This document shows positions 56,705 through 61,634 of a DNA stretch of 64,000 nt, piece after piece. The first letter of the stretch is position 1, and each line of letters begins with the position of its first letter. This stretch comes from an uncultured Flavobacteriales bacterium. GTDB lineage: Bacteria; Bacteroidota; Bacteroidia; Flavobacteriales_D; Parvicellaceae. Below the pieces are notes generated by a model. That model was given only the letters and a program-made list of their open reading frames with translations. It had not been told where the DNA came from and searched no databases. The stretch covers positions 1 through 64,000 of the forward strand of contig CALSRM010000002.1 in NCBI GenBank assembly GCA_943788755.1, in the 5' to 3' direction. A program made the position numbers and the translations under genes.

Positions 56705-57799
56705 ATGACAATACAAGAAGTAACAAATTATTTAGAATCGATAGCTCCACTTCAGTATCAAGAGAGTTACGATAACGCTGGTTTAATTGTTGGTAATTAT
56801 AAGAATGATGTTTCAGGAGTTTTAGTTTGCTTAGATAGTACGGAGGAAATTATTGATGAAGCAATAGAACGAAAGTGTAATTTAATTGTTGCGCATCATC
56901 CAATTGTATTTTCAGGATTAAAAAAAATTACGGGTAAAAACTACGTTGAAAAAACAGTTATTAAAGCTATTAAAAATGATATCGCTATTTATGCGATTCA
57001 CACGAATTTGGATAACATGTTGAATGGTGTGAATGAAATTATAGGTAGAAAATTAGGGTTGATTAATACGCAGGTTTTGTCACAGTCTAGTAATAACCTC
57101 AGGAAACTGATAACATATGTCCCTCTTGAATATGTAGAAAAAGTCCGGGATTCTTTATTTGATTCTGGTGCAGGGAAAATTGGAAATTATGATGAATGTA
57201 GCTATAGTAGTATGGGTGAAGGGACTTTTCGAGCTGGGGATAATACAAATGCATTTATTGGAGAAAAAGGGAAAAGACATCTTGAAGCCGAGCAAAAGCT
57301 TGAAGTAATTTACGCAATAGATAAGCAAAGTGCGATTTTATCCTCTTTGTTAAATAGTCATCCTTACGAAGTTGTAGCTTATGATATCTTGCAATTACAA
57401 AATAGTAATTCAGATGTTGGAGCAGGCTTAATTGGCGATTTGGAAAATGGAATTGACGAAATTACTTTTCTAAAATCTTTAAAGATTACGATGAAAACGG
57501 ATTGTGTCCGCTATACTGAATTGCGGGGAAGACAAATTAAGAAAGTTGCTTTATGCGGTGGTTCAGGAAGTTTTTTGTTGAAAGATGCTATTCGTCAAAA
57601 AGCGGATGTTTTTATTACAGGAGATTTCAAATATCATGAATTTTTTGATGCTGAAAACCGCCTTGTTATCGCAGATGTTGGGCATTTTGAAAGTGAACAG
57701 TATACAATTGAGCTTTTAGTTGATAAACTAAAGGAAAAATTTACTACTTTTGCGGTCTGTTTTACGGAGGTAAATACAAATCCCGTTAATTATTTGTAA
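56705..57799 (+). CDS. NIF3/DUF34-family dinuclear-metal protein
   Basis: A 364-aa protein with the two-part NIF3 fold and a middle insertion. N-terminal metal ligands appear in NLIVAHHPIVFSGLKKI and YAIHTNLDN, C-terminal ones in ITGDFKYHEFFDAEN and VIADVGHFESE. Between them (about residues 135-230) lies the PII-like or CutA-like insertion present in longer bacterial members. Family members have been proposed to act in GTP cyclohydrolase I-related or other metal-dependent hydrolysis, but the function is not settled. The next gene starts six bases after its stop. Confidence 0.88.
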   Translation: MTIQEVTNYLESIAPLQYQESYDNAGLIVGNYKNDVSGVLVCLDSTEEIIDEAIERKCNLIVAHHPIVFSGLKKITGKNYVEKTVIKAIKNDIAIYAIHTNLDNMLNGVNEIIGRKLGLINTQVLSQSSNNLRKLITYVPLEYVEKVRDSLFDSGAGKIGNYDECSYSSMGEGTFRAGDNTNAFIGEKGKRHLEAEQKLEVIYAIDKQSAILSSLLNSHPYEVVAYDILQLQNSNSDVGAGLIGDLENGIDEITFLKSLKITMKTDCVRYTELRGRQIKKVALCGGSGSFLLKDAIRQKADVFITGDFKYHEFFDAENRLVIADVGHFESEQYTIELLVDKLKEKFTTFAVCFTEVNTNPVNYL

Positions 57800-57805
57800 A
57801 TTATT

Positions 57806-58591
57806 ATGGCAAAAAAGAAAGAATCTACAGCTGAGCAAAAGTTAAGAGCACTTTATAATCTTCAAATTATTGATTCTAGAATTGATAAAATTCGTCAAGT
57901 ACATGGAGAGTTACCTTTGGAGGTACAAGACCTAGAAGATGAGTTAGAAGGAATGAACTTAAGGTTATCTAAAGTCGAAGAAGAGATTAGTGATTTGAAT
58001 TTGCAAATCAACGAAAAGAAAAATGTTATTGAAGAGTCTAAGGCTGGCGTTGCAAAATACTTAGAGCAACAAAAGAAAGTTAGAAATAACAGAGAATACG
58101 ATTCGTTGACGAAGGAAATAGAATACCAAGGTTTGGAAGTGGAATTAGCTGAAAAAAGAATCAACGAGTATAAAGCAAGAATCGCTTCTAAGCAAGAATT
58201 GCTTGAGACAAGTGTATCTGAATTAGAAGATAAGAAAGGAGCTTTGGATGCTAAGAAAAATGATTTAGCTGAAATTGAAGCTGAAACGGCAAAAGAAGAG
58301 AGCCTATTGAGAGAAAAATCAAAAGAAGCTTCTGCCGGCGTTGAAGAAAGATTGTTGAAAGCATATACTAGGATTAGAAACGCTGCTAAAAATGGTTTAG
58401 CGGTTGTTCCTGTTGAAAGAGGTGCTTCGGGTGGTTCATATATTAAAATTCCACCACAAAGGCAATTAGATATTGCAGCTCGTAAAAAAATCATCATTGA
58501 TGAACACAGTGGAAGAATCCTTGTTGATTTAGAGTTAGCTAATGAAGAAACGGATAAAATGGAAAAGATGCTTGCGAAGTTATTAAAGTAA
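57806..58591 (+). CDS. Coiled-coil protein with degenerate C4-type zinc ribbon
   Basis: A 261-aa protein: a long antiparallel coiled coil (about residues 8-180, high Glu/Lys) and a C-terminal segment homologous to the zf-RING_7 type zinc ribbon. The family's second half is normally C-x-G-C-F-x-x-[IV]-P-P-Q-R-Q with a distal C-E-x-C-G-R-I-L. Here the positions are Ser208, Ser211, Asp232 and Ser235 (RGASGGSYIKIPPQRQ, IDEHSGRIL), so all four zinc ligands are gone while IPPQRQ and GRIL persist. Other family members form dimers and have been linked to nucleic-acid binding. It is in an operon with the NIF3-family gene, six bases after it. Confidence 0.88.
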   Translation: MAKKKESTAEQKLRALYNLQIIDSRIDKIRQVHGELPLEVQDLEDELEGMNLRLSKVEEEISDLNLQINEKKNVIEESKAGVAKYLEQQKKVRNNREYDSLTKEIEYQGLEVELAEKRINEYKARIASKQELLETSVSELEDKKGALDAKKNDLAEIEAETAKEESLLREKSKEASAGVEERLLKAYTRIRNAAKNGLAVVPVERGASGGSYIKIPPQRQLDIAARKKIIIDEHSGRILVDLELANEETDKMEKMLAKLLK

Positions 58592-58610: not shown

Positions 58611-58646
58611 AAAAAGGGGTTAACATATGTTAACCCCTTTTTTTTT
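58611..58646. terminator. Bidirectional intrinsic terminator
   Basis: A perfect 32-base palindrome (58611-58642) with core GGGGTTAACATATGTTAACCCC-type arms and A/T flanks, then T to 58646. It lies between convergent genes and can serve both. Confidence 0.9.
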
Positions 58647-58664: not shown

Positions 58665-60137
58665 TTAAAATTTACGCCCAAAGGTAAATATCAAATTAGT
58701 GTTAGATTTTTTAATTGGTGTATTCCCCACTAATATTGGGTCGTACATATAATAGTCTTCGGTCAAAGTTGAGCTTGTAACAGCGAAGTCGATGTAAAAG
58801 CTTTTTACACGGTAACCAAGACCTCCAGAATACGTTAGTTTCGCGTCATTATTTTCAACAGCAGTAAGGTTATATGGGTTTTGATAATAGGCAAAACCTA
58901 ATCTAGTATATACGGGTCCTGCTATTTTAATCTCACTCCCAATTCTTATGTTGTGCGTTGCTCTAAAGTTAATATCTCCCGTGTTATTTTCGTTCGAAAA
59001 ATTGTAGCTACTTCCTGAAAAAGGATGGCTAGATAAAGCACTTCCTGCATAATCAATGTATTCATAGTCAGCGCTTATCATTGCTTTTCTAGCAATAATC
59101 ACTGAAAGGCTGCCGATAAGTCTTCCAGGCGTTCTCAGCTTAAATAGAAAACTTCCGTCAGGAGAATTAGAAGAATAGGTTTCACCATCTTTAAATTTAG
59201 ACGTCATACTTGAGCTCCAGTTGTCTTTCATATAGTAGAATTTCGTAGCTGTATGATATGCAGCGCCTATCCTCAACCATGTAGTAGGAAGTACAATGAT
59301 TCCTAATTTAGCGTTGACTCCATTTCCTCGTGTTGTTAAATACTCATTATACGAAAAGTGTTCTATTTCCAGCGAGTCGTTTAAGGCTGTTTCAGTATGA
59401 TTTTTTTCTTGTCTAAATCGTATTGTAGGGAAGCCAATTGTTCCACCAATGTATATTTTATTATTGAAGTTTCCAGACATTGCGATTGCTGTCTCTCCCA
59501 TGTGACCTTTTCGGGTAATTGTATGCCGGTGATTGAATTCTCCTTGGTACATCTGGGTTGTGTAGTAGTTTCCAGAGGAGTCGCCAGGGTCAATTACATA
59601 CGTATCGTAAGCTAAACCTGATGTAAACGATAGGCTTTCGTAAATGTCGTCCGGATGTATACCTCTTGCTTGCGCAGCAAAAACATACGACATAGAAGTG
59701 TCGCTTATTCCAGATATACTAGTTCGTTCATTAAAGTTTGCAAGCCGATTGTAACTGAGTCCAAACTGAATACTTTTCCATAAGGAAGCACTTTCTCTTC
59801 CTGCTTTAATTACGCCAACAATACCTATGTTTCCTATTACAAAACTTTCATGTCCGTTTGTTGCATTCGTCCCCATAAACTGGGTTGATGAGTTTTGTAG
59901 GCCAATTTGAGGTGTAATGGACCATTCGGATGACTTAAAACGAGCCATTCCTGCTGGATTTACACTTAGTACAGATAAATCCGCCCCTAGCGCACCGAAA
60001 GCTCCTGCAACACTATTGTATCTTGCTGTTCCTCCAAAATCGAGGAAGCTATAACGTAAGGCATCTTCTTCTGTTTGAGCTTTCGATTGTATCGAAAAGG
60101 ACATGAGAATCACCAGAACTAATAGGACTTGTTTCAT
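58665..60137 (-). CDS. OmpP1/FadL-family outer-membrane protein
   Basis: A 490-aa protein with a signal peptide (residues 1-20, MKQVLLVLVILMSFSIQSKA). The N-terminal plug-like segment, ALRYSFLDFGGTARYNSVAG, then AFGALGADLSVLSVNPAGMA, has the family NPAG motif. A long barrel follows, ending LIFTFGRKF. FadL-type proteins let hydrophobic compounds across the outer membrane; substrates here are unknown. The start at 60137 gives the signal peptide. A longer reading to 60440 overlaps the preceding lipoprotein gene in another frame and was rejected. Confidence 0.88.
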   Translation of the reverse strand: MKQVLLVLVILMSFSIQSKAQTEEDALRYSFLDFGGTARYNSVAGAFGALGADLSVLSVNPAGMARFKSSEWSITPQIGLQNSSTQFMGTNATNGHESFVIGNIGIVGVIKAGRESASLWKSIQFGLSYNRLANFNERTSISGISDTSMSYVFAAQARGIHPDDIYESLSFTSGLAYDTYVIDPGDSSGNYYTTQMYQGEFNHRHTITRKGHMGETAIAMSGNFNNKIYIGGTIGFPTIRFRQEKNHTETALNDSLEIEHFSYNEYLTTRGNGVNAKLGIIVLPTTWLRIGAAYHTATKFYYMKDNWSSSMTSKFKDGETYSSNSPDGSFLFKLRTPGRLIGSLSVIIARKAMISADYEYIDYAGSALSSHPFSGSSYNFSNENNTGDINFRATHNIRIGSEIKIAGPVYTRLGFAYYQNPYNLTAVENNDAKLTYSGGLGYRVKSFYIDFAVTSSTLTEDYYMYDPILVGNTPIKKSNTNLIFTFGRKF

Positions 60138-60174
60138 TAGAGTTTCATTTTTATGATAATCAATAAATACAGGT

Positions 60175-61542
60175 TTATCTTCTTCCTCCTGATTTAGACG
60201 TTGAACTATTGCCTTTACTTCGGGAAGATCCGCTGCTTCTTCCGCTTGATCTAATTGGAGAAGAAGAGCTTCTTGACACTGATGAACCTGCACTGCTTCT
60301 GGAAGGCTTATAATTTGATGAAGATCCACCACCTCTATTATTGCTAGGTTTAGTAGTTGAAGGTCTGGTGTAACTATTGTTAGGCTTTGCAGCATTGTAT
60401 GGCCTGGTGTAGTTGTTGTTATTTGGGCGACTTGCTCCATTGTTAAAGTTTGTTTTAGTCGTTGTGCTTGGTTTCGCTCTCCATGCAGAAGATGTACCTC
60501 TAGAATTATTTATAGATGCAGGTTCTCTAGAAATGTAATTCGAATTTCCTTTTTGAGTTGGAGTTGTTCTCGTGGTATTTAAATCGTGATTCTCAAATTT
60601 GTTATTATTTGATAATGAAGATAAACTATTATCATATGAAGGAACTTTCATAGAGTTAGCCAATACATTGGAACCGCCAATTGCTTTGCCATTATTCATG
60701 CTCGCATTTGATGCAGTTGGTGTTGTGAAGCTGGTGTTAATATTTCCATGTCCGCTCATATTGATAGTTGGATCAATTTTTTTAACTACAGCAGTAACCG
60801 TATTATAATCTTCGCTACTAGAGTTCCCGTAACTGGATCCGGTCAATGAATTTGAACTCATGCCTCCTCCATGGTTTCCAGTGTATGAATTACTTGCCGT
60901 TTGGTCGCCGTAGTAATTTCCATAATTAGAATTGTTTCCATATGCATTCCCATAATAGTTTCCATATCCATTACCGTAATAGCCATTGCAGTTGTTTCCG
61001 CAGCAGCCATTTCCATATCCGCCATGTCCATAGTTATTACATCCGTAATTATTCCAATAGTTGTTGTTTGAGCAACAGCTCATGCCGTTGTTGTAATAAG
61101 AGTTATTAGCGTATCCTGAATAATAGTTTCCAAAGTAAATGCCTGTATTCCATCCGTAAGGACTACCGTAGTAGTAGGAATTTGTATAATAAGGATTGTA
61201 ATAACTATACCCTGAATTACAGTTATTAAATCTTCTTATTCTTGAAGAGTATTGGTAATCATAATTGGAATTGTAATAATTGTTTGTTACATAATTATTA
61301 CCTTCCTTGTTATTTTCTGTTTCAGAATATCTTGGGTCATAATAATCATCTTCACCTACTTGGGCCGAAGCTTCCTCTTCATAAGAATAATATTCTTCAA
61401 ATTCAGAATTTGAACTTGTAGTCGGTGTATATGACTCTTCTTCAGAATAAATGTCATCTTTATAACTTAAGTCTTGAGTAGATGAACAAGAAGACAAAAG
61501 TCCAATTACAGCTACTGATAGGATTGAGTTTATGATTTTCAT
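60175..61542 (-). CDS. Asn/Tyr/Gly-rich low-complexity lipoprotein
   Basis: A 455-aa protein with a lipobox LLSSC (Cys19) in MKIINSILSVAVIGLLSSC. After an acidic Glu/Tyr-rich stretch (about 28-70), residues about 75-235 are dominated by Asn, Tyr and Gly (for example YNSNYDYQYSS, NGYGNYYGNAYGNNSNYGN), with paired cysteines (SCCSNN, GCCGNNC). Residues about 235-390 are Ser/Asn/Thr-rich, and the C-terminal 65 residues are Ser/Arg-rich (SSAGSSVSRSSSSPIRSSG). No enzymatic domain is visible. It lies 37 bases upstream of the FadL-like gene on the same strand, likely in one operon. A longer reading to 61608 was not used. Function unknown; surface adhesion or a matrix role are guesses. Confidence 0.7.
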   Translation of the reverse strand: MKIINSILSVAVIGLLSSCSSTQDLSYKDDIYSEEESYTPTTSSNSEFEEYYSYEEEASAQVGEDDYYDPRYSETENNKEGNNYVTNNYYNSNYDYQYSSRIRRFNNCNSGYSYYNPYYTNSYYYGSPYGWNTGIYFGNYYSGYANNSYYNNGMSCCSNNNYWNNYGCNNYGHGGYGNGCCGNNCNGYYGNGYGNYYGNAYGNNSNYGNYYGDQTASNSYTGNHGGGMSSNSLTGSSYGNSSSEDYNTVTAVVKKIDPTINMSGHGNINTSFTTPTASNASMNNGKAIGGSNVLANSMKVPSYDNSLSSLSNNNKFENHDLNTTRTTPTQKGNSNYISREPASINNSRGTSSAWRAKPSTTTKTNFNNGASRPNNNNYTRPYNAAKPNNSYTRPSTTKPSNNRGGGSSSNYKPSRSSAGSSVSRSSSSPIRSSGRSSGSSRSKGNSSTSKSGGRR

Positions 61543-61634
61543 AATGTTGAGATTATATGTTATTAATAATATCGACTTGATAGTAAATTTAAATAAGTTT
61601 GGGCACATTATAAAAGCTACCTCTTATTAATTTT

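Follow-up and report, generated by a model that had tools for sequence, protein, structure and literature searches.

The window, a 64,000-nucleotide stretch of DNA from an uncultured Flavobacteriales bacterium, encodes a 261-residue coiled-coil and ribbon protein of the DUF164/COG1579 family immediately downstream of a NIF3/DUF34 gene (Table 1). The two genes share a strand and are separated by a 6-nt gap between the end of NIF3 at 57799 and the ribbon start codon, which confirms the linkage proposed in an earlier, sequence-only reading of this DNA. The ribbon protein matches PF02591 at 31.4 bits (curated cut-off 29.1), with residues 208-239 covering profile positions 2-33 of 33, and a profile search of the window's genome returned it as the only PF02591 match. 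Antisense to the ribbon gene runs a 200-residue open frame (57895-58497, minus strand) that resembles a coiled-coil shadow ORF. Further along, two minus-strand ORFs (58665-60440 and 60175-61608) overlap within 58665-61608; the former probably has its start further in, at a signal-peptide-like MKQVLLVLVILMSFSIQSKAQ; the latter is lipoprotein-like and rich in Tyr, Asn, Gly and Ser.

Table 1. Features of the NIF3-ribbon unit, in window coordinates
Feature	Position	Strand	Basis
NIF3/DUF34 gene, directly upstream of the ribbon gene	56705..57799	+	PF01784, 273 bits; motifs HHP, TNLD and GHxExE kept
Cys-less DUF164/COG1579 (PF02591) coiled-coil and ribbon protein, 261 aa	57806..58591	+	ORF; PF02591 over cut-off; Foldseek/VIA matches to HP0958, CT398 and MSMEG_4306
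Coiled coil of two long antiparallel helices (approximately 9-91 and 95-177), then linker helix 181-193	57830..58384	+	AlphaFold2 DSSP, pLDDT mostly 85-95
Former first zinc knuckle, S208-G-G-S211 replacing CxxC	58427..58438	+	Alignments
I213; hydrophobic (I/F/V) throughout the Cys-less forms, N/S/H throughout the C4 forms compared	58442..58444	+	28 vs 28 columns; 190 fragments
A224; Ala (27) or Ser (1) in Cys-less, mostly R/K/Q/E in C4	58475..58477	+	28 vs 28 columns
Former second zinc knuckle, D232-E-H-S235 replacing CEHC	58499..58510	+	Alignments
Added C-terminal helix 242-260 (predicted); conserved L244, A245, E247, M252 and hydrophobic 256	58529..58588	+	AlphaFold2; tail lengths
Terminator-like hairpin, 14 pairs, with T run; closes the unit	58611..58642	+	3 sites found vs 0.8 expected from shuffles

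The genomic setting of the ribbon gene is shared by its four-cysteine (C4) and Cys-less forms. A NIF3 (COG0327) neighbour is frequent in the DUF164 family according to two reports (PMC3372290, PMC8469502), and in our survey NIF3 adjoins the ribbon gene at 159 Cys-less and 53 C4 loci. Clear exceptions come mainly from one family (f13; L022, L059-L063), in which the ribbon gene lies away from NIF3, unlike in nearly all relatives. The metal motifs of NIF3 are intact in the window copy and in the inspected copies as far as those reach. In addition, rpoN was found in the window's genome and in 39 of 39 genomes tested, with both ribbon forms represented, and its presence would allow a FlgZ-like stabilisation of sigma-54 by the window protein.

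In the window protein, the four metal positions of the family are occupied by S208, S211, D232 and S235, from the start of codon 208 at 58427 to the end of codon 235 at 58510. This replacement of all four cysteines had been noticed, at exactly these coordinates, from the letters alone, and it holds in the ORF, in the alignments and against PF02591. Using phmmer alignments, these four residues fall opposite the zinc cysteines of HP0958 (3NA7) and CT398 (4ILO), indicating that the cysteines have not been displaced; the ribbon domain holds no cysteine elsewhere. Accordingly, the protein lacks the C4-type CxxC-X(18-26)-CxxC pattern and instead shows SXXS-X20-DXXS with exact spacing (S208xxS211, 20 residues at 212-231, D232xxS235). 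The flanking IPPQRQ (215-220) and GRIL (236-239) reported earlier are present in the translation. The order of domains is that of the family, a coiled-coil hairpin followed by a C-terminal ribbon, as seen in the AlphaFold2 elements and in whole-length matches to 3NA7, 4ILO and 5Y05.

The Cys-less ribbon is a known variant, published in 2011, and is neither decayed nor special to the window's genome. Pereira et al. (2011, PMC3372290), in the portion of the article available, report that the two CXXC motifs are generally replaced by SXXS-X20-DXXS in the DUF164 proteins of Flavobacteria, and count 43 of 349 family members in which at least one cysteine is missing. The motif, the protein family and the bacterial class are the same as here, and the authors regard both the function and the zinc binding of such proteins as uncertain. 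That portion describes the motif only; the linked residues, the added helix, the predicted structure and the tree conflict presented below come from the present analysis. A literature search for later work on the Cys-less form found none.

Our sampling extends this distribution. It covers 60 relatives plus further f8, f9, f3 and f13 genomes. Within the window's order, S/S/D/S occurs in all intact sampled proteins of six families (f1, f3, f5, f9, f11 and f13), with rare exceptions consisting of A or T at single positions (position 208 is occasionally Ala) and one genome, G021, with V at 232. Every intact sampled protein of f2, f4, f6, f7, f8 and f10 is C/C/C/C, and no sampled family of the order mixes the two forms. 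Outside the order, every f17 gene that was read is Cys-less, and f14, f15, f18 and f20 are C4. In the tree, f17 clusters with sequences from named Flavobacterium, Polaribacter and Tenacibaculum. A pattern scan of named genomes gave, among the matches listed, Cys-less genes in Flavobacterium, Polaribacter, Tenacibaculum, Aquimarina, Winogradskyella, Maribacter and others; the nearest named relative in the window's family, again among the matches listed, is a Crocinitomicaceae MAG (L202). A mixed DEHS/CEHC pattern also matches DEHTGR, probably in SecA, and other unrelated sites in some genomes; these were left out of the counts. The loss is therefore shared by six families of the order and by a wide range of Flavobacteriaceae genera, rather than peculiar to this gene. 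The sequence-only reading had named Cys-less forms that are both widespread in the phylum and functionally equivalent as a finding that would count against it, and as regards distribution this is largely what we, and the 2011 report before us, observe.

The ribbon gene is single-copy in nearly all genomes, and no genome among the matches listed carries both a C4 and a Cys-less copy. One draft genome of the window's genus holds a second Cys-less copy (L042; G001:C185:1-960) that groups with Flavobacteriaceae (f17) and is probably bin contamination or a transfer. In another draft (L055; G019:C72) the gene breaks off near residue 205 and continues in a second reading frame, probably through an assembly error.

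Conservation of the replaced residues was examined in 190 distinct DNA fragments spanning codons 207-239. These were picked by IPPQ and DEHSGRIL, so that D232 and S235 were themselves part of the selection, and 5 of the 190 are of a Cyclobacteriaceae type with Cys211. Among unselected positions, 208 is Ser in 174 and Ala in 15 fragments and 211 is Ser in 182, with Ala207 (189), Gly210 (189) and Arg226 (185) nearly fixed. Silent codons vary freely while the residues hold. Conservation of D232 and S235 is seen separately from the DEHS selection in alignments found by similarity. In an alignment not picked by motif alone, although it takes in some loci from pattern scans, S211, E233-L239 and IPPQ show no variation, and S208 and D232 almost none. 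These sequence data indicate strong purifying selection across the whole Cys-less motif.

Additional changes accompany the loss of the ligands. When 28 Cys-less and 28 C4 proteins are compared, the columns that fully separate them are the four ligand columns, 213, 224 and tail position 252, which is M, I or V in the Cys-less proteins. The tail beyond residue 240 is 17-25 residues long in Cys-less proteins versus 4-11 in 23 of the 28 C4 proteins. An AlphaFold2 model built from a Cys-less-only alignment has a strand at 200-203, a helix at 217-225 and a strand at 238-241, followed by the added helix, whereas the C4 model shares these ribbon elements but lacks the final helix. Confidence in the ribbon is lower for the Cys-less model, with 10-residue blocks falling to pLDDT 62-77, compared with 86-89 for the C4 model. 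The ribbon fold is thus predicted to be kept without metal, and the suggestion that the domain folds without zinc gains support in the form of this prediction. The linked residues and the added helix are new detail beyond the published motif.

Structural relatives of the window protein retain the metal site. VIA-align, used as a second look at fold matches and not as a search, gave whole-chain Z scores of 16.8 for CT398 of Chlamydia trachomatis (4ILO), 16.4 for HP0958/FlgZ of Helicobacter pylori (3NA7) and 15.0 for MSMEG_4306 of Mycobacterium smegmatis (5Y05/5Y06). CT398 is the best whole-length match (rmsd 2.4 over 235 residues) at about 20% identity, but has Cys at all four positions. HP0958 likewise combines a coiled-coil hairpin with a C-terminal ribbon and has NIF3 upstream (Foldseek E 6.7e-8; 18-20% identity); its chain aligns as far as roughly position 244 in the window protein, short of the added helix. 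Unlike the window protein, HP0958 has four zinc cysteines, which are important for RpoN protection (PMC3372290). MSMEG_4306 shows the same two-domain layout and a strand-helix-strand ribbon, but differs in binding one zinc through four Cys, a zinc that was used for SAD phasing (PMC5947703).

The history of the Cys-less ribbon is more complex than a single descent along the species tree. With the four ligand columns removed, the protein tree places all Flavobacteria-type Cys-less proteins in one clade (99/96). The residue set was inherited together, and the earlier proposal of four independent losses is wrong. Trees of the coiled coil alone disagree: the careful one splits the Cys-less proteins into several groups, and the quick one joins them in a single group with weak support (27). 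This region therefore cannot decide whether there is a single Cys-less clade. Such a clade is rejected by rpoB (AU p 0.0004) and by rpoB+rpoC (AU p 0.0005), and a single C4 clade within the order is likewise rejected by rpoB+rpoC (p 0.001). Seven state changes are needed on the rpoB tree and seven on the rpoB+rpoC tree, though the deep branches of both trees are partly open. The conflict between one Cys-less ribbon clade and the rpoB/rpoC rejections implies that transfer, old paralogy (duplication with loss) or convergence was involved. In a tentative scenario, which we regard as possible rather than probable, the ribbon was rebuilt once as a metal-free module, through the hydrophobic switch and the helix brace. 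This version would later have moved from family to family, or have persisted as one of two ancient versions, leaving C4 and Cys-less forms in an alternating pattern across Flavobacteria that conflicts with the species tree. A second lineage lies outside the Flavobacteria-type clade. Cyclobacteriaceae/Flammeovirgaceae proteins (L126/L127, L170, L187, L193 and L242) carry A-C-D-S and I213, but have R224 and a different, K/P-rich tail. Those included in the tree group as a separate clade next to C4 relatives. Cyclobacteriaceae thus acquired the same D, S and I changes separately.

We consider it probable that the window protein carries a Flavobacteria-type, metal-free COG1579/DUF164 ribbon that is held by the added helix and hydrophobic packing and keeps the adaptor role of the family. 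The long coiled-coil hairpin would be unchanged in such a protein, and the C-terminal ribbon would retain its strand-helix-strand fold with both knuckles held without zinc. Here, D232 and the serines may accept backbone NH hydrogen bonds within each knuckle, as the cysteine sulfurs formerly did, and I213, A224 and the new helix may form a small hydrophobic core in place of the metal. Alongside NIF3, the adaptor would bind proteins or nucleic acids as partners, and neither zinc supply nor cysteine oxidation would affect it any longer. The separate arrival of Cyclobacteriaceae at D232, S235 and I213 argues for a metal-free ribbon. Counting against it is HP0958, which does not tolerate the replacement of single cysteines by Ser: C202S eliminated RpoN protection, and the C223S protein was destabilised (PMC3372290). 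Unchanged function is most likely, judged solely from shared context. A different partner or job than in C4 relatives, with the Ser/Asp surface and the added helix forming a lineage-specific binding site, would fit the very strict conservation of DEHSGRIL, a tail helix that is both new and conserved, and the unmixed forms within families of the order. However, C4 proteins conserve IPPQ and the E-x-C/S-G-R-x-L frame to the same degree, which suggests a shared partner surface, and both forms have the NIF3 neighbour and the rpoN background in common. We therefore regard a switched contact as rather unlikely.

It appears very unlikely that D232, H234, E233 and the serines bind a different metal. 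The Asp, Glu and His at the old site are invariant or nearly so, but E233 and usually H234 are also conserved in C4 proteins, where Cys are the ligands; moreover, the alanine found at 208 in some fragments and the hydrophobic residue that comes in at 213 do not suit a metal site. The loss of ligands from a retained protein has a counterpart in the C-minus ribosomal proteins L36 and S14, whose zinc knuckles lack ligands; the likeness ends there, as fold and function are unrelated to those of the ribbon. Both proteins in the window's genome lack most zinc ligands, S14 being a long form without the CxxC ligands, and this could be read as adaptation to a low-zinc habitat, which the sequence-only reading had raised. 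In C4 and Cys-less Bacteroidia genomes alike, however, L36 (L347, L348, L349-L377) keeps just one of its three Cys and has lost the His ligand, and L377 lacks that last Cys as well. The ribbon change thus does not track a general zinc-saving shift, and the Cys-less form is fixed over a wide range of Flavobacteriaceae genera, making a habitat-driven origin highly improbable. Neutral decay of a domain that is being lost would explain the absence of four out of four ligands, but we give it almost no credence: purifying selection over the motif is strong, the gene persists as a single copy, and conservation of the substituted residues across families effectively refutes it. The view that the domain has been kept and adapted instead of simply decaying is borne out by this order-wide conservation.

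These observations have implications for how the family is annotated and studied. The label C4-type zinc ribbon is misleading for Flavobacteriaceae. The metal-free ribbon would offer a natural case in which a structural zinc site has apparently been swapped for protein packing, in a widely conserved but poorly understood family. Related families that carry matching C4 and Cys-less versions, together with a second, parallel loss, provide ready pairs for asking what role zinc plays.
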